Positions 1-6,809 of a DNA stretch of 64,000 bases are shown piece after piece. The stretch covers positions 62,001 to 126,000 of the forward strand of contig NZ_JOIU01000017.1 in NCBI RefSeq assembly GCF_000720135.1. The letters are read 5' to 3'. The position numbers were made by a program, and so were the translations under genes. The DNA comes from Streptomyces sp. NRRL S-1022. Its GTDB lineage: Bacteria; Actinomycetota; Actinomycetes; Streptomycetales; Streptomycetaceae. Each line of letters opens with the position of its first letter. Positions within the stretch are counted from its first letter, which is position 1. The notes under the pieces were generated by a model that was not told where the DNA came from, made no database searches, and saw nothing but the letters and a program-made list of their open reading frames with translations.

Positions 1-207
1 GACCGCCACCTGGTCATCGGGCTCGACGAGGGCATCGCCGCCGGCATGCCGGACACGTTCCCCGACCAGACCTTCGAGAACGTCTGGCTCGACTCCGCCC
101 CGGGCGACTACTGGCGCAGTCGCGAGTACCCGCTGCGCTTCGGCGACCTCGACCCGGTCATCGCCTCCGAGATCCTCGCCGACCTCACCGAGGTGACCGC
201 CAAGTGA
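1..207 (+). CDS. DUF4132-family protein, C-terminal end only (yehI-like)
   Basis: Only the last 68 codons lie in the window; the reading frame is open from base 1 and stops with TGA at 205-207. The residues end with a stretch reading FGDLDPVIASEILADL, which resembles the closing segment I know from DUF4132 (MolR/YehI) proteins. The next gene starts at a GTG inside this stop region, so the two are translationally coupled. The main support is context: the four genes that follow (MoxR ATPase, DUF5682, VWA, SWIM) match the E. coli order yehI-yehL-yehM-yehP-yehQ. No activity can be read from the fragment. The assignment rests mostly on synteny. Confidence 0.6.
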   Translation, partial: DRHLVIGLDEGIAAGMPDTFPDQTFENVWLDSAPGDYWRSREYPLRFGDLDPVIASEILADLTEVTAK

Positions 208-1301
208 CCGCCACCGTCGAAGAAACCGGCGAGGCGCTGCTCCAGCGCCCGCCCGCCGAGGTCCGGTACGCCGCCGAACTGGCCGCCCTGCGCGCCGCGG
301 ACACCGACCCCCGCCCGCCCGGCTGGCAGCTGAGCCTGCGCGCGGCCCGCCGCTTCATCGTCGGCGACGAACCGGCCGGCATCAGCCGCAAGTTCGTCGG
401 CAACGTCTCCCTGGTCGAGCGCGCCCTGGTGACCCTGGCCACCAACCGCGGCCTGATGCTCGTCGGCGAGCCCGGCACCGCCAAGTCGCTGCTGTCGGAG
501 CTGATCGCGGCGGCCGTCAGCGGCAGCAGCGCGCTCACCGTCCAGGGCGGCGCGGCCACCACCGAGGACCAGATCAAGTACTCCTGGAACTACGCGCTGC
601 TGGTCTCGGAGGGCCCCTCCGCGCGTTCCCTGGTGCCCGCGCCCATGCTGCGCGGCATGGTCGAAGGGCGGATCGTACGGTTCGAGGAGATCACCCGCTG
701 CCCGCTGGAGGTACAGGACTGCCTGCTGTCCCTGCTCTCCGACCGCGTCATCACCCTTCCCGAACTGGACGGACCCGACGGCCTGGTCTTCGCCCGGCAG
801 GGGTTCAACGTCATCGCCACCGCCAACACCCGCGACCGGGGCGTCAACGAGATGAGCGCCGCCCTCAAACGGCGCTTCAACTTCGAGACCGTGCTGCCCA
901 TCGCCGACTTCGAGACCGAGCTCGCCCTGGTCGGGGCCGAGGCCGCGGCGCTGCTGCGGCAGTCCGGGGTGGAGCCGCCGCCGCGCCGGGACGTGCTGGA
1001 GGTACTGGTCGGCACCTTCCGCGAACTGCGGGGCACCGCGGGGCGCGGCGAGCGGATGTCGACGGTGATGAGCACCGCCGAGGCCGTTTCCGTGGCCCAC
1101 GCGGTGGGGGTGCGGGCCTGGTTCCTGCGCGGCGAGCCCGGCGGTGCCGCCGACGTCGTGTCCTGCCTGGCGGGTACGGCCGCCAAGGACAGCCCGGAGG
1201 ACCTCGCCCGGCTGCGCCGCTTCCTGGAACAGGAGGCACCGCACCGGCCCGGCCCGCAGTGGCAGGCCCTGCACGAGGCCCGCCACCTCCTGGCCGACTG
1301 A
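204..1301 (+). CDS. MoxR-family AAA+ ATPase (yehL-like)
   Basis: A 365-residue AAA+ ATPase of the MoxR type, cytoplasmic. The Walker A loop GEPGTAKS is at residues 88-95, followed by a Walker B-type RFEEITRC segment, a sensor stretch IATANTRDRG, and an arginine-rich KRRFNFE motif. MoxR ATPases usually act with a VWA-domain partner as a chaperone or insertase-like remodelling pair, and that partner lies two genes downstream. GTG at 204 was chosen as start because it overlaps the upstream TGA as GTGA and leaves a full-length ATPase. The gene ends in TGATG, overlapping the DUF5682 start. The ATPase identity is secure; the substrate is unknown. Confidence 0.9.
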   Translation: MTATVEETGEALLQRPPAEVRYAAELAALRAADTDPRPPGWQLSLRAARRFIVGDEPAGISRKFVGNVSLVERALVTLATNRGLMLVGEPGTAKSLLSELIAAAVSGSSALTVQGGAATTEDQIKYSWNYALLVSEGPSARSLVPAPMLRGMVEGRIVRFEEITRCPLEVQDCLLSLLSDRVITLPELDGPDGLVFARQGFNVIATANTRDRGVNEMSAALKRRFNFETVLPIADFETELALVGAEAAALLRQSGVEPPPRRDVLEVLVGTFRELRGTAGRGERMSTVMSTAEAVSVAHAVGVRAWFLRGEPGGAADVVSCLAGTAAKDSPEDLARLRRFLEQEAPHRPGPQWQALHEARHLLAD

Positions 1302-3664
1302 TGCCGGCCACGACAGCGCCCGCCGTCTTCCTCGGCGTGCGCCACCACTCCCCGGCCTGCGCGCGGCTGGTCGCCGACACGATCCGGACGCTGCGGCCGG
1401 CGTGGGTGCTGGTGGAGGGCCCGGCGGACATGAACGACCGGATGGACGAACTGCTGCTCGGGCACACGCTGCCCGTCGCCGTGTTCAGCCACTACCGCGA
1501 CGACCGGCGCGTGGCCACGTCCTGGACACCGCTGTGCGACTACTCCCCGGAATGGATCGCGCTGCGCGAGGGGCGGGCGGCCGGCGCCGAGGTGCGCTTC
1601 ATCGACCTGCCCGCCTGGCACCCGGCCGTCGCCGGCCGCACCGACCGGTACGCCAACCGCTACGCGGACGCGGAGGCGCGGTACGCCGAGGCCACGCACA
1701 GGCTGTGCGAGCACTTCGCCGTCGACTCCGTGGACGCCCTGTGGGACGGGCTGTTCGAAGTCACCGGGCCGGGTACGGACCCGCAGGAGCTGCGCGCCCG
1801 GCTCGACGCCTACTTCGAACTGGTGCGCGGCGACGCGGAGGCGGACCCCGCGGACCGGGCGCGCGAGGAGTACATGGCCGCCTGGGTGCGGGCCGCGCTG
1901 GCCCGCACCGGCGACCGCCCGGTCCTGGTGGTCACCGGCGGCTTCCACCAGCCCGCCCTGCGGGCACTGTCCGCACGGCACGGGGCCGCCGCGGCCCCGG
2001 CCGGCTGGCCCGCGGTGCCCGAGCCGCCCGACGGAGCGCTCGGCGGCAGCTTCCTCGTGCCCTACTCCTTCCGGCAGCTGGACGCCTTCGCCGGATACCA
2101 GTCCGGCATGCCCTCGCCCGGCTACTACCAGCGGCTGTGGGAGACGGGTCCGCCGGCGGCCGGGCAGGGTCTGCTGCGGGCGGTCACCGAGCGGCTGCGG
2201 ACCCGCGGGATCCCGCTGTCCACGGCCGGCCTGATCGCCGCCCGCTCGCTGTCCCAGGGGCTGGCCCAGCTGCGCGGCCACCCGTACGAGACGCGGGTGG
2301 ACGTCCTCGACGGCCTGGCCGGCGCGCTGATCACCGACGACCTGGACCGGCCACTGCCGTGGACGACGCGGGGCACCCTCGGCGCGGGCACCCATCCGGT
2401 CGTGGTGGAGATGGTCGCCGCCTGCACCGGCGAGGCCGTGGGCCGGCTGCACCCGGACACCCCCCTGCCCCCGCTGGTGCACGACGTGGCCGGCCGGCTC
2501 GCCCGCCTGGCGCTCGCCGACGTCACCGCGCCGGTCACCCTGGACCTGACGAAGGAGCGGGGCCTGGCCCGCAGCCGCACCCTGCACCGGCTGCGCGTCC
2601 TGGGCGTCCCCGGCTTCACCCGCGTCTCCGGACCGGCCCACGGGGCCGACCCGGTGTTCACCGAGGTGTGGGAGCCGGGCCCGGTGGCCGGCCGGGAGGC
2701 CGCGCTCATCGAGGCCGGTGCCTACGGGGCACGCCTGGACGAAGCCGCCGCGGCGCTGCTCGGCGAGCGGACGCACGCGGCGGGCCCCGAGCTCGGGGCG
2801 CTGGCCGGGCTGCTGTTCGACGCCGTGCTGTGCGGGGCCGGGCCGCTCTGCGCCGACCTGCTGACGGCGCTCGCGGTCCGGGTGGGGCAGGCCGGCGACC
2901 TCGGCCGGCTGGGCGAGGTGCTGTCGGCGGCGCTGGGCCTGTGGCGGCACGACCGGGTGTTCGGCGTGGCCCGGGACGGGCTGCTGGGCCGGGTGGTGGG
3001 CAGTGCCGCCGACCGGGTGTTCTGGCTGGCGGAAGGGCTGCACGGCGGCCCCGGGGCGGACCTGGCGGTGGTGCGCGCGCTGGCGGCCGCCCGGGACGCG
3101 CTGCGCCACGCCCCCGCCCTGCTGTCGGTCGGCCCGGAGGCCGCCGCCGAGGCCGCCGCCCGTATCAGCCGCGACCCGCGCGCCCCGGCCGCACTGCGCG
3201 GAGCCGCCTTCGGCCTGCGCTGGGCGCTGGGCGTCCCGGACGACCCCGGGCCGGTGGTGCAGGCGCTCGCCGCGGCCGCGGTGGACACCCTCGGCGACTG
3301 GCTGACCGGCCTGTTCGCGGTGGCCCGCGAGGAGGTGGCCCACGGCACGACGACCGGCGGCGGCTCCCTGATCGACCTCGTGGACGGGGTCGTATCGGCG
3401 CTGCCCGAGGGCGACTTCCTCGTCGGACTGCCCGCGCTGCGCCAGGCCTTCGCCTTCTTCCCGCCCCGCGAACGCGAGCGCATCGCCGAGCGCTTGCTGC
3501 ACCGCCGCCGGCTGCGCGGCTCGGCCCGCTCCCTGCTGCGCACCCCCGCCGACCCCCTGCTGCTGGCCCGCGCCAGAGCCCTGGAGGAGAACGTGACCCG
3601 ACTGCTCGACCGCCACGGCCTGGCGGCACCCGCCCCCGCTCCTCGCCCGGAGGCGACCGGATGA
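1301..3664 (+). CDS. DUF5682-family protein (yehM-like), possible EreA/TraB-type hydrolase
   Basis: A 787-residue protein with no signal peptide or clear membrane segment. It starts at ATG 1301 within the TGATG junction with the ATPase gene; a longer in-frame start at 1259 would add 14 low-complexity residues and was rejected. It opens with GVRHHSPACAR (residues 12-22), then LVEGPADMND, FIDLPAWHP and, later, TGGFHQPAL. The two GxxH motifs and the EGP glutamate look like the sparse signature of the EreA/TraB/TIKI superfamily, so a metal-dependent hydrolase is an inference worth testing. The C-terminal half is Ala/Leu/Arg-rich and probably helical. The end overlaps the VWA start as ATGA. The role in the cassette is unknown. 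Confidence 0.8.
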   Translation: MPATTAPAVFLGVRHHSPACARLVADTIRTLRPAWVLVEGPADMNDRMDELLLGHTLPVAVFSHYRDDRRVATSWTPLCDYSPEWIALREGRAAGAEVRFIDLPAWHPAVAGRTDRYANRYADAEARYAEATHRLCEHFAVDSVDALWDGLFEVTGPGTDPQELRARLDAYFELVRGDAEADPADRAREEYMAAWVRAALARTGDRPVLVVTGGFHQPALRALSARHGAAAAPAGWPAVPEPPDGALGGSFLVPYSFRQLDAFAGYQSGMPSPGYYQRLWETGPPAAGQGLLRAVTERLRTRGIPLSTAGLIAARSLSQGLAQLRGHPYETRVDVLDGLAGALITDDLDRPLPWTTRGTLGAGTHPVVVEMVAACTGEAVGRLHPDTPLPPLVHDVAGRLARLALADVTAPVTLDLTKERGLARSRTLHRLRVLGVPGFTRVSGPAHGADPVFTEVWEPGPVAGREAALIEAGAYGARLDEAAAALLGERTHAAGPELGALAGLLFDAVLCGAGPLCADLLTALAVRVGQAGDLGRLGEVLSAALGLWRHDRVFGVARDGLLGRVVGSAADRVFWLAEGLHGGPGADLAVVRALAAARDALRHAPALLSVGPEAAAEAAARISRDPRAPAALRGAAFGLRWALGVPDDPGPVVQALAAAAVDTLGDWLTGLFAVAREEVAHGTTTGGGSLIDLVDGVVSALPEGDFLVGLPALRQAFAFFPPRERERIAERLLHRRRLRGSARSLLRTPADPLLLARARALEENVTRLLDRHGLAAPAPAPRPEATG

Positions 3665-4860
3665 GCCCCGCACCGCCCGACCCGGTTCCGGCACCGTCCG
3701 GCACGCCGGCGACCCCCGACCCCGGGCTGGAGCGCTGGCGGCTCATCCTCGGCGCCGCCGCCGAACGCCGCACCGGCCCCCTGCACGGCGCGTCCGCCGC
3801 CCGGGACGCCGCGCTGGACTGGCTGTACGGCCGCGACGAGGACCTGCGCCGCCGCGGGGTGCGCCGCGGGGCGGCCGGCTCCCGGGAGGGCGGCAGCGGA
3901 CCGTCCCAGCCGACCGCCGTGGACTGGCTCGACGACATCCACCGGCTGTTCCCGAAGGAGACCGTGGAGAGGCTGGAACGCGACGCGGTGGAGCAGTACG
4001 AGGTCCACGAGATCGTCACCGACCCCGACGTCCTCGCCCGCGTCGAGCCCAGCCAGACCCTGCTGCGGGCCGTCCTGCGCACCAAGCACCTGATGAACCC
4101 GCAGGTGCTGGCGGCGGCCCGACGGATCGTCGAAACGGTCGTACGGCAGCTGATGGAACGCCTCCAGCCGGAGGTGCGCCGGGCGGTCACCGGCTCGCGC
4201 ACCCGCCGCCCCAGCCGGCTGCCGCTCGCCCGCGACTTCGACTTCCGCAGCACCATCCGCGCCAACCTCGCCCACTACCAGCCCGGGGAACGCCGCATCC
4301 TCATCCAGCGGCCCCACTTCCACTCCCGCACCCGCCGCCACCTGGAGCAGTGGCAGCTGGTGCTGCTGGTGGACCAGTCGGGCTCCATGGCCGGCTCGGT
4401 GATCCACTCGGCGGTCACCGCCGCCTGCCTGTGGAGCCTGCCGGGCCTGAAAACCCATCTGGTCGCCTTCGACACCGCGGTGGTGGACCTGACCTCCGAG
4501 GTGACGGACCCGGTGGAGCTGCTGATGCGGGTGCAGCTCGGCGGCGGCACCGACATCGCCCGCGCCGTCGACTACGGCGCCTCGCTCGTGGAGAACCCGC
4601 GGCGCACGATCGTCGCCCTCGTCTCCGACTTCTACGAGGGCGGCGACCCGTTCCGTCTGGTGCGCACCGTGCGGCAGCTGGTCGAGCAGGGCACCACCGT
4701 GCTGTGCCTGGCCGCCCTGGACGAGGCCGCCGACCCCGTCTACGACCGCGACCTGGCCGGCCGGCTGGCCGCGGTGGGCGCCCCGGTGGGGGCGATGACG
4801 CCGGGCCGGCTCGCGGAGTTCGTCGCGGAGCGGATCGGCCGCGGAGGACAGGCCCGGTGA
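3661..4860 (+). CDS. VWA (CoxE-like) domain protein (yehP-like)
   Basis: A 399-residue protein with a proline-rich N-terminus, a charged helical middle region and a C-terminal von Willebrand A domain. The MIDAS metal site is complete: DQSGS begins at residue 238, with GGGTD further on and an SDF segment after the next strand. VWA proteins of this kind bind a divalent metal and partner with MoxR ATPases such as the one two genes upstream. ATG 3661 overlaps the DUF5682 stop as ATGA and was preferred over the long upstream in-frame extension. There is no signal peptide, so it is cytoplasmic. It ends in GTGA, coupling it to the SWIM gene. Confidence 0.88.
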   Translation: MSPAPPDPVPAPSGTPATPDPGLERWRLILGAAAERRTGPLHGASAARDAALDWLYGRDEDLRRRGVRRGAAGSREGGSGPSQPTAVDWLDDIHRLFPKETVERLERDAVEQYEVHEIVTDPDVLARVEPSQTLLRAVLRTKHLMNPQVLAAARRIVETVVRQLMERLQPEVRRAVTGSRTRRPSRLPLARDFDFRSTIRANLAHYQPGERRILIQRPHFHSRTRRHLEQWQLVLLVDQSGSMAGSVIHSAVTAACLWSLPGLKTHLVAFDTAVVDLTSEVTDPVELLMRVQLGGGTDIARAVDYGASLVENPRRTIVALVSDFYEGGDPFRLVRTVRQLVEQGTTVLCLAALDEAADPVYDRDLAGRLAAVGAPVGAMTPGRLAEFVAERIGRGGQAR

Positions 4861-6809
4861 CCCGCTCCGACCTGCTGGCCCTGACACCCGACACGCTCGC
4901 CTCGCTCGCCAACCGGGGCCTGGTCAAGCGCGCCGACAAGGACCTCGCGGCCGGCTCCGGACCGGAGGTGACCACCGGCGACGACGGCACCGTACGCGGC
5001 ACCTTCCCGGACGGCACCGTGACCGTGCTGCCGCCGGGCCGCGGCCTGGACGCGGCCGACTGCACCTGCGCCGCGGCGGCAATGTGCCGGCACCGGATCG
5101 CCCTGGTGCTGGCCTACCAGCGCGGCGCGCCGCAGCAGCCGCCGGCGGCCGGGGAACCGCTGGTGGACTGGTCGCCCGGCGCGTTCGACGACGACGCGCT
5201 GGCCGCCGCGCTGGGCCGCACCGCCCTGACCGCCGCCCAGCGCGTCCGCGCCCGCGGCTACACCGCCCGCGTGCACCGCCCCACCGCCGACGACCCGGTA
5301 CCCCGCGTGGAACTGCCCACCTGCACCGTCCGCTTTCCCGTTCCGCGCGCGCTGGGCTACGCCCTCACGGACGCGGCCGCCGCCCTGCGCGGCGAGGTCG
5401 TCACCCTCGCCGTGTGGGCCTTCCGCGCGGCGGACGCCCAGCGGACGACCGAGGTGTGCGTCGGCGGCCGTACGACCACGCCCCCGGCGGCCGTCGAGGC
5501 GATGCGCGCGGCCCTGGCGCTCGCCGACGAACTCCTCCTGGACGGCGTGCGGCACGCAGGCCCGGTCTTCGCCGGCTCGCTCCGCCGCGCCGGGCGCGCC
5601 CTGGCCGCCACCTCCCTGCACTGGCCCGCGGGCGCGGTCGACGAGCTACGGGAACAACTCGACGCCTACACGGCCCGCGAGACCCGCTACACCCCCGAAC
5701 GCCTGGCCCTGCTCCTCGCCGAACTCCACGCCCGGCACCGCGCCGCCGGCCACGACCCGGCCGGCGTGCTGGGCACCGCGGAGGCACCCGTGACTCCGCT
5801 GCGACGGGTACGGCTGGTGGCGCTCGGCTGCCGGATCGGCGGCACCGCCCGGGACCGTACGGCCGAGACGTACTTCGCGCACGCCGACGCCGGCATCGCC
5901 CTGGTCCTGCGCAGCCGCTGGGACCTGACGGAAGACCAGCGGCCCACGGGCCACGACCTGTCCGGGCGCCGCCTGCTCGGCTCACCGCTGCACGCGCTGG
6001 CCACCGCGAACGTCGTCAGCGAACACACCACGCGCGCCGCCGACCGCACGGTCACCCTCTCCCGCGGCCGCATCGCCGCCACGAGCGTCACGCCGGCCGG
6101 CTCGGCCTGGACGGAACTGCCCCGGACCCTGCTGGTGCGGGACACCGCCGCACACCTGCGGGCGGCCGGCGAGCGCCCGCCGCGACTGATCCGCCCGCGC
6201 GTCGCGGCGGACGACGTACGCGTGGTCATGGTGGACGCCGTCGAGGAGATCGGCTACGACCCCGCCGCGCAACGCCTCGAAGCGGTGCTCCGCGACCCGG
6301 CGGGCAACGGCGTCCACCTCCACGCCGAGTACAACCCGCTGTGCCCCGGCGGCCTCGACGCGCTGGCCGCGGCGCTGGCCGACGACGGGATCCGTGCCGT
6401 CAGCGGCATGCTGGGCCGCTCCCGCGGCCGTACCGTGCTGGACCCGCTCGCCGTGCTGACCGCCGACGGCGTGACCGTCCCCGACCTGGCCCCCGGCGCC
6501 GGCGACAGCGCGCTCGAAGCGGCCGGGCACCGCCCGTCCGACCCGGTCACCGCGGCCCTGCGGGCGGCGCTCATGGCCCTCGCGGACGCGGCCCACCAGG
6601 GCCTGCGTCACCTGACCCCCGCGACCCGCACCGCCCTCACCGACGGAGCGGACCGGCTGCGCCGCACCGGCCTGAACGGCGCGGCAGCCCGCCTGGACGA
6701 CCTGACCCGCACCCTGCACGAGGAGGGAGCCCCCGCCGCCGTCCCGCACTGGGTGACGGCCCAGATCCGGCTGACGACCACCCTGGACCTGCACCAGGAG
6801 GACGGCTGA
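4857..6809 (+). CDS. SWIM zinc-finger family protein (yehQ-like)
   Basis: A 650-residue cytoplasmic protein with an N-terminal SWIM zinc finger: C69-x-C71-x5-C77-x-H79, the classical CxCx(n)CxH pattern. SWIM fingers bind DNA or proteins. The rest is Ala/Arg-rich and not recognisable by eye. The GTG start at 4857 sits within the VWA stop (GTGA), so this is the fifth member of the same coupled operon and probably its last, since the next gene lies on the opposite strand 43 bases on. Within the cassette it would be a plausible adaptor or nucleic-acid sensor for the MoxR-VWA pair; that is inference. Confidence 0.88.
   Translation: MTRSDLLALTPDTLASLANRGLVKRADKDLAAGSGPEVTTGDDGTVRGTFPDGTVTVLPPGRGLDAADCTCAAAAMCRHRIALVLAYQRGAPQQPPAAGEPLVDWSPGAFDDDALAAALGRTALTAAQRVRARGYTARVHRPTADDPVPRVELPTCTVRFPVPRALGYALTDAAAALRGEVVTLAVWAFRAADAQRTTEVCVGGRTTTPPAAVEAMRAALALADELLLDGVRHAGPVFAGSLRRAGRALAATSLHWPAGAVDELREQLDAYTARETRYTPERLALLLAELHARHRAAGHDPAGVLGTAEAPVTPLRRVRLVALGCRIGGTARDRTAETYFAHADAGIALVLRSRWDLTEDQRPTGHDLSGRRLLGSPLHALATANVVSEHTTRAADRTVTLSRGRIAATSVTPAGSAWTELPRTLLVRDTAAHLRAAGERPPRLIRPRVAADDVRVVMVDAVEEIGYDPAAQRLEAVLRDPAGNGVHLHAEYNPLCPGGLDALAAALADDGIRAVSGMLGRSRGRTVLDPLAVLTADGVTVPDLAPGAGDSALEAAGHRPSDPVTAALRAALMALADAAHQGLRHLTPATRTALTDGADRLRRTGLNGAAARLDDLTRTLHEEGAPAAVPHWVTAQIRLTTTLDLHQEDG

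Follow-up and report, generated by a model that had tools for sequence, protein, structure and literature searches.

The window analysed here, a stretch of 64,000 nucleotides (C17:62001–126000) from the genome of Streptomyces sp. NRRL S-1022 (8.9 Mb in 235 contigs), opens on an operon of five genes encoding, all on a single strand, a DUF4132 protein, a MoxR AAA+ ATPase, a DUF5682 protein, a VWA_CoxE protein and a SWIM zinc-finger protein, a five-family set hereafter designated type A (Table 1; L002 coordinates refer to the upstream-extended locus). As the original prediction, made from the letters of the window, had it, the genes overlap by 1–4 bases, the junctions in operon order being 4 (GTGA), 1 (TGATG), 4 (ATGA) and 4 (GTGA) bases, and the motifs and domains that it had named, that is, the MoxR GEPGTAKS, DUF5682, the metal-ion-dependent adhesion site (MIDAS) of the VWA protein and the SWIM finger, were all located. 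The SWIM protein scores just below the Pfam SWIM cut-off (19.2 bits versus 19.6, 0.4 under) with its CxC..CxH pattern intact. The closest database protein to the window DUF5682 protein is from Streptomyces sp. NPDC088760 (93% identity).

Table 1 Features of the cassette in the window and its upstream extension (window positions unless marked L002).
Feature	Position	Strand	Remarks
DUF4132 (yehI-like), 3' end	1–207	+	Window holds just the gene end
DUF4132, full gene, 1138 aa	L002:10791–14207 (about window −3209 to 207)	+	
MoxR AAA+ ATPase (yehL orthologue)	204–1301	+	Walker A GEPGTAKS at 465–488; strong Pfam AAA_5 match
DUF5682 protein (yehM orthologue)	1301–3664	+	PF18934, E 1.2e-99
GVRHHS of DUF5682	1334–1351	+	First GX2H (G12, H15); H16 also invariant
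Glu39 of DUF5682 (VLVEGP)	1415–1417	+	Candidate catalytic acid
Arg188 of DUF5682	1862–1864	+	Candidate conserved basic residue
GGFH of DUF5682	1937–1948	+	Second GX2H (G213, H216)
VWA_CoxE protein (yehP orthologue)	3661–4860	+	E 9.5e-58; MIDAS DQSGS from 4372, GGGT, SDF
SWIM zinc-finger protein (yehQ orthologue)	4857–6809	+	C-x-C-x5-C-x-H at 5061–5093

The likeness to the yeh genes of Escherichia coli, also put forward in that prediction, was borne out. Judged by pairwise BLASTP and gene order, the Streptomyces cassette is orthologous to E. coli yehI-yehL-yehM-yehP-yehQ, with the five families in identical order and identities of 35% over 526 aa (DUF4132/YehI), 65% (MoxR/YehL), 36% (DUF5682/YehM), 58% (VWA/YehP) and 29% (SWIM/YehQ). 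E. coli K-12 differs in that yehK sits between yehI and yehL, with yehF and a yehH pseudogene upstream of the E. coli operon. The LexA-like box CTGGATAAAATTACAG starts 25 bases ahead of yehF rather than ahead of yehL. Of 5426 E. coli genomes, 5284 contain yehM DNA, and 5166 retain 80% or more of the gene.

The wider distribution was examined by a scan anchored on a yeh-like conserved DUF5682 motif, from which the best 80 of at least 575 confirmed relatives were kept and their loci searched with profiles built from annotated copies of the cassette proteins. Co-location was counted in the 62 of these 80 loci that extended at least 6 kb leftward and at least 9 kb rightward from where the DUF5682 match starts, with the 18 shorter-flank loci excluded. 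All five families were present in 57 of the 62 loci, and individually MoxR and VWA in 61 each and SWIM and DUF4132 in 59 each; at L060, SWIM falls just outside the distance cut. The five-family cassette is therefore, with near certainty, real and not a product of chance, and the families are co-located rather than scattered. This co-inheritance agrees with the earlier view of a dedicated machine lacking an established function, and no paper describing the cassette was found in the open-access literature. Gene order varies among loci: DUF4132, in one to three copies per locus, mostly comes first, is last in 8 Bacillota loci and stands in the middle in L058 and L060. Solitary DUF5682 genes, with no cassette partner in the fetched flank, occur at L068 (Blastocatellia) and L070 (Planctomycetaceae; a short-flank locus). 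The five-family set is also found in plasmid records of Iodobacter and Sinorhizobium. DUF4132 is less exclusive and also occurs without the cassette; it is present in 30 of 61 Streptomyces genomes, at 41 listed places, 5 of them with scores over 200 bits, as for the copy in the window.

Two further forms, which go beyond the original prediction, were recognized in Streptomyces. In type B, DUF5691 replaces DUF4132; the order is SWIM-DUF5691-MoxR-DUF5682-VWA in plasmid records of Rhizobium and Deinococcus, and Methylosinus has the same order with VWA in pieces. The window genome also has a type B cassette, with SWIM-DUF5691 divergent from MoxR-DUF5682-VWA, which adjoins a gene with succinyl-CoA-ligase domains and whose MoxR and DUF5682 proteins are 44% and 31% (over 372 aa) identical to those of the window. 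The type B layout was seen in all 21 Streptomyces loci checked (the own locus and 20 from the top of a Streptomyces DUF5682 scan), with the VWA end cut off in many stretches. In type C, DUF5682 and VWA share one open frame, as in 5 of 5 Streptomyces loci chosen for a mid-scoring DUF5682 (L145–L149; extension stretches L177 and L178). At L145, MoxR and the DUF5682-VWA fusion are preceded by a small DUF4132 gene and by an open frame, roughly 1900 aa long, for which no Pfam match at the curated level was obtained. Among 150 Streptomyces genomes, 146 encode DUF5682 of any type. Across the class it was present in 24 of 118 genomes; these 24, of which 8 belong to the genus itself, are all at least 3.6 Mb in size. 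The hhalign comparison of DUF4132 with DUF5691 was not significant.

The enzyme-like character of DUF5682 is likewise new relative to that prediction. Its N-terminal domain (residues about 1–231) was modelled with a predicted local distance difference test score (pLDDT) of 90.6, and the top 15 structural rows for this domain were ChaN, EreC and other TIKI-type folds at 9–19% identity; the C-terminal part (residues about 270–770) is large and alpha-helical. The model makes it very probable that the N-terminal domain has a TIKI-like fold. DUF5682 shares with the TIKI/TraB/EreA/ChaN superfamily this predicted fold and the GX2H, Glu, Arg and GX2H elements with similar spacing, whereas the large helical C-terminal part and the fixed MoxR-VWA partners set it apart. 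The GX2H...E...R...GX2H set is invariant across types A, B and C; the scan pattern imposes RHH[SG]P in L012–L091, so that the invariance of residues 14–18 is partly built in, that of E39–H216 being unaffected. The H–E and R–H spacings are 24 and 28 residues, compared with 28 and 29 in RRSP by published residue numbers; the structure rows 6a7h and 6a8j, titled 'bacterial protein toxins', we take to be RRSP from their residue numbering. The chains 8bqs_DQ, 7w5z_E and 8b6h_DQ are from Tetrahymena, whose complex IV contains a TraB-family protein (PMC10060162) to which they may correspond. Two DUF5682 records (P0024 and P0087) bear the source name 'ChaN family lipoprotein'. A search of the PDB by sequence yielded just three matches, all of them weak, confined to the helical part and to proteins of the designed type, and hhalign of the C-terminal part against DUF4132 or DUF5691 was not significant. 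On the model and the invariant residues, DUF5682 is probably an active hydrolase, and a protein may tentatively be named as its substrate.

The operon also carries a regulatory signature. Upstream of the window, TTGTCAGAGGGGCCGGATAGCGT begins 77 bases before the DUF4132 start (L002:10714, about window −3286), and from its letters it is the RecA-NDp/PafBC motif of actinobacterial DNA-damage promoters. The published form of this motif is TGTCGG or TGTCAG-N10-TA-N3-T (PMC8151990), and a RecA-NDp promoter is known ahead of Streptomyces genes (PMC5087735). Among the type A loci of Actinomycetota, 20 of 37 match the motif strictly within the promoter regions of the cassette, compared with 0 sense matches elsewhere, 2 antisense matches and 0 matches to the reversed pattern in the same loci; with one mismatch allowed, the counts are 33 in the regions, 4 outside, 5 antisense and 8 reversed. 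Were sense matches placed at random, the probability that 12% of the sequence would receive 20 of them is about 4e-19, a value to be read in the knowledge that related loci are not independent. The first test, with tight gene starts, gave 10 of 35 loci. As divergent N termini escape the profile, the region was then widened to reach 450 bases upstream of the start of the open frame, a choice made after the first result; the sense/antisense/reversed contrast is independent of this widening. Two loci that begin at the locus edge (L039 and L062) are nevertheless counted among the 37.

The same motif recurs at the other two types. Each of the 21 Streptomyces type B loci has exactly one strict match, which lies in the interval from SWIM to MoxR and is oriented towards SWIM. 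In the 11 type B loci from outside Streptomyces (L153, at a contig end, was left out), 3 strict and 4 variant matches (TGTCRS or an altered first base) were found, all on the SWIM strand; four of these seven lie 46–51 bases before the SWIM profile start, whereas the motif precedes the SWIM match by 105 bases in L170 and by 24 bases in L176. The strict motif is present in 5 of 5 type C loci of Streptomyces; it was seen in 3 of 5 before extension, and the two stretches that had ended ahead of the likely promoter both gave strict matches once extended. In having the strict motif at the operon start and in coding orientation, the cassette resembles members of the PafBC/RecA-NDp regulon, and it is very likely, as far as promoter letters can tell, to be PafBC-controlled in many actinobacteria. 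MoxR and SWIM are not named as PafBC regulon members in the main texts of PMC6789036 and PMC8151990. The original prediction had suggested a conflict or stress system, and it is the stress half that gains from these results, the damage-promoter motif being frequent in Actinomycetota.

In the host genome as a whole, 39 strict sites were found, against 0 sites for the reversed control, and one of them ends 65 bases before a RecA domain match. For 20 of the 39, picked for a clear long frame, the downstream gene was scanned; the other 19 comprise recA, the two cassettes, seven sites without a clear single frame and nine not given as loci. Eight of the 20 downstream genes have repair-family domains, namely RadA, RarA/MgsA, RuvA, RecD2, UvrD, LigA, UvrA and UvrB as read from the Pfam domains, and a further five are plausibly repair-related (HNH nuclease, DEAD helicase, GHKL ATPase, WGR protein and JetA2/DUF2397). 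A candidate PafBC, assigned by position, is a WYL pair (C12:285492 and 286486) within 2.5 kb of a Pup ligase. In ten other Streptomyces genomes, 435 sites were counted versus 23 reversed, the strict sites in a single genome numbering between 29 and 57. The RecA-NDp/PafBC regulon is thereby indicated as widespread in Streptomyces. Two single sites may be mentioned here. The motif precedes a DUF2397 gene at L093 (G000:C1:354908), a PADLOC match to JetA2 (Wadjet), which suggests that this plasmid defence may be under damage control; it also precedes a gene for a WGR and beta-propeller protein at L119 (G000:C24:4054), and E. coli yehF encodes a WGR protein too.

Gene fusions indicate how the products may meet. 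MoxR (residues 13–369) and DUF5682 (372–1149) are fused in one database protein (P0033), and DUF5682 and VWA are joined in the type C loci and in the L021 open frame. The existence of fusions for both pairs suggests that MoxR, DUF5682 and VWA contact one another, and on such grounds the cassette proteins quite probably form one physical complex. The MoxR Walker A motif is GxPGTAK[S/T] in 74 of 74 MoxR matches above 300 bits. In the 37 cassette-linked DUF4132 proteins scanned, HEAT_2 was found in 13 and a WGR domain in 12. WGR is a DNA-binding domain of PARP1, and DUF4132 would fit a damage role because it offers a repeat scaffold with, in a third of cases, a nucleic-acid-binding domain.

Collectively, from the gene set and order, the predicted fold of the DUF5682 N-terminal domain, the invariant motif, the promoter motif and the gene fusions, all of which were computed, we infer induction, complex formation, hydrolysis and the nature of the substrate: with a rough probability of 0.6, the cassette encodes a MoxR-VWA motor that is induced by damage and gates a hydrolase of the TIKI fold. 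In actinobacteria, the RecA-independent activator PafBC would switch the operon on via its RecA-NDp promoter. The MoxR AAA+ ring and the VWA protein, the latter acting as a substrate-binding co-chaperone, would constitute an ATP-driven remodelling motor around DUF5682, while the HEAT-like DUF4132 and the SWIM protein would be scaffold or recognition subunits that likely meet damaged DNA or proteins on DNA. By loading or releasing the hydrolase, the motor would restrict cleavage of the substrate, a protein or an ester, to conditions of damage. The broader proposal, that at least seven phyla share such a damage-response machine, in which a MoxR-VWA motor, steered by a large scaffold (DUF4132 or DUF5691) together with SWIM, arms a TIKI-fold protease or hydrolase, is possible but rather doubtful.

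MoxR-VWA modules are already known; what is new is the enzyme assignment and the regulon. If the proposal is true, a MoxR-driven enzyme joins the bacterial DNA-damage response as an ATP-gated proteolytic switch separate from LexA, Lon and Clp, and many Streptomyces have two or more such cassettes in parallel. For an operon of nearly every E. coli that had no established function, the motif provides a condition and the fold provides an assay (H15, E39 and H216).

Several results weigh against this interpretation. Seventeen of the 37 actinobacterial type A loci, including two truncated by the end of the locus, have no motif, and in 3 extra type A loci it was present in 1; it was absent from 4 of the 11 non-Streptomyces type B loci, from one Nocardia type B locus and from the MoxR-DUF5682 locus L161. 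The L174 variant match lies as far as 648 bases before SWIM, and the SWIM matches of L170 and L176 lack the first 107–139 profile positions, leaving the gene start unsure. Related loci share descent, and the motif counts are accordingly not independent. Seven of the 20 genes behind the own-genome sites (2 MFS, trehalose-phosphatase, S15 peptidase, EccE and 2 without a family) are not plausibly repair genes. Moreover, an initial search had reported that the Mycobacterium smegmatis PafBC motif is not conserved in S. venezuelae (PMC9380542); contrary to that search, the Streptomyces site counts argue for the PafBC motif in the genus. On the side of the enzyme, hhalign of the DUF5682 N-terminal domain against a narrow alignment of YbaP (TraB family) gave probabilities of 0.4 and 3.8, which are not significant, and a Foldseek search with DUF5682 at full length returned nothing at E ≤ 0.001.

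The motif searches in other phyla weigh in the same direction. In 44 loci of other phyla, 0 strict motif matches were found in the promoter regions, with 1 antisense and 2 reversed, and a Deinococcus-type damage motif gave 0 matches in L009. LexA control of the cassettes was also considered and was rejected: no strict LexA box occurs in 60 cassette loci of all phyla, and one-mismatch counts in four groups were within the range of permuted-arm controls (Bacillota, 10 versus a control mean of 7.0 and a maximum of 12). The evidence for damage control of the cassette is confined to the actinobacterial promoter motif. In published work, yehF stands in a table of SOS genes with a transcript log2 change of up to 1.14 (PMC11002266), molR is listed as LexA-regulated (PMC11039860 and PMC4576408), and the D. 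radiodurans DUF4132 gene drA0166 is strongly upregulated when the damage repressor DdrO is lost (PMC8533742). The yehI-yehQ block has been deleted in the genome-reduced E. coli DGF-298 (PMC10652928) and is therefore dispensable for growth there, a further point on the negative side.

Among other explanations, the one that survives best is an anti-phage or conflict system of the MoxR-vWA ternary type, in which the motor would set a threshold and DUF5682 would be the effector. The cassette shares with the ternary systems (Kaur et al. 2020, PMC7159879) MoxR, vWA, a third component and the TAK[S/T] P-loop variant, the latter being near the unusual GXXXTAKS of the FtsH and beta-propeller systems, and the window protein gives a partial bpMoxR match (21 bits versus a cut-off of 27). 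The Iodobacter plasmid copy lies beside a type I restriction-modification system, DUF5682 occurs in the 24 of 118 class genomes given above, and the JetA2 gene behind the same motif indicates that damage and defence can share a regulon. However, the third component of the cassette is the TIKI-fold DUF5682, no over-cut-off Pfam match to the ternary-system third components (VMAP, iSTAND, FtsH and beta-propeller) was found in the window proteins, and the main text of Kaur et al. makes no mention of DUF5682, YehL, SWIM or DUF4132. Furthermore, PADLOC (2023 library) gave no match for window-type and related cassette proteins; one scan of viral contigs gave 7 MoxR pattern matches, 0 of which were confirmed as close relatives; and beyond the cassette families no recurrent extra gene was found within about 10 kb, where clusters in at least three genera were judged by position, not all being named, and those noticed were paralogues of cassette genes, antisense frames, and transport-type or other genes whose distances varied, none of them a constant partner. 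The near-universal presence of yehM DNA in E. coli and of DUF5682 in Streptomyces points the same way. A conflict role is for these reasons unlikely, and this half of the original suggestion has no direct support.

Less probable still is that DUF5682 is a non-catalytic TIKI-fold protein, comparable to the haem-binding ChaN, and that the action of the cassette is remodelling or binding, not cleavage; the complete His/Glu/Arg/His set, invariant in types A, B and C, speaks against it. The haem-binding family PF04187 was looked for in the own genome and not found. Both the CoxD-CoxE and RavA-ViaA systems share with the cassette a MoxR ATPase and a VWA_CoxE-type partner, and the cassette differs from them in its five-gene set and DNA-damage promoter motif. 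A cofactor- or metal-insertion machine like CoxD-CoxE is the weakest candidate and very improbable: the window VWA belongs to VWA_CoxE and MolR was named for molybdate use (PMC8533742 and its reference 69), a name that would hint at molybdenum, whereas no metalloenzyme or cofactor gene recurs within about 10 kb (an unlinked target being possible), a damage-regulon promoter does not suit metal insertion, and, in the same source, moeA and moeB were not differentially expressed while Deinococcus DUF4132 and WGR genes rose. The metal-insertion analogy drawn earlier finds no support apart from the family name VWA_CoxE.

Some observations on individual loci may be added. In E. coli NZ_CP137737.1, an IS5 element lies inside yehM and interrupts the operon, and in E. 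coli ST131 L1a a resistance transposon is located in the DUF4132 region (metG/DUF4132/yeh; PMC9334617). Upstream of the Streptomyces cassette, L002:6225–10371 holds an HSP90 (HtpG) gene and a gene for a trypsin-like protease with an alpha-lytic prodomain.

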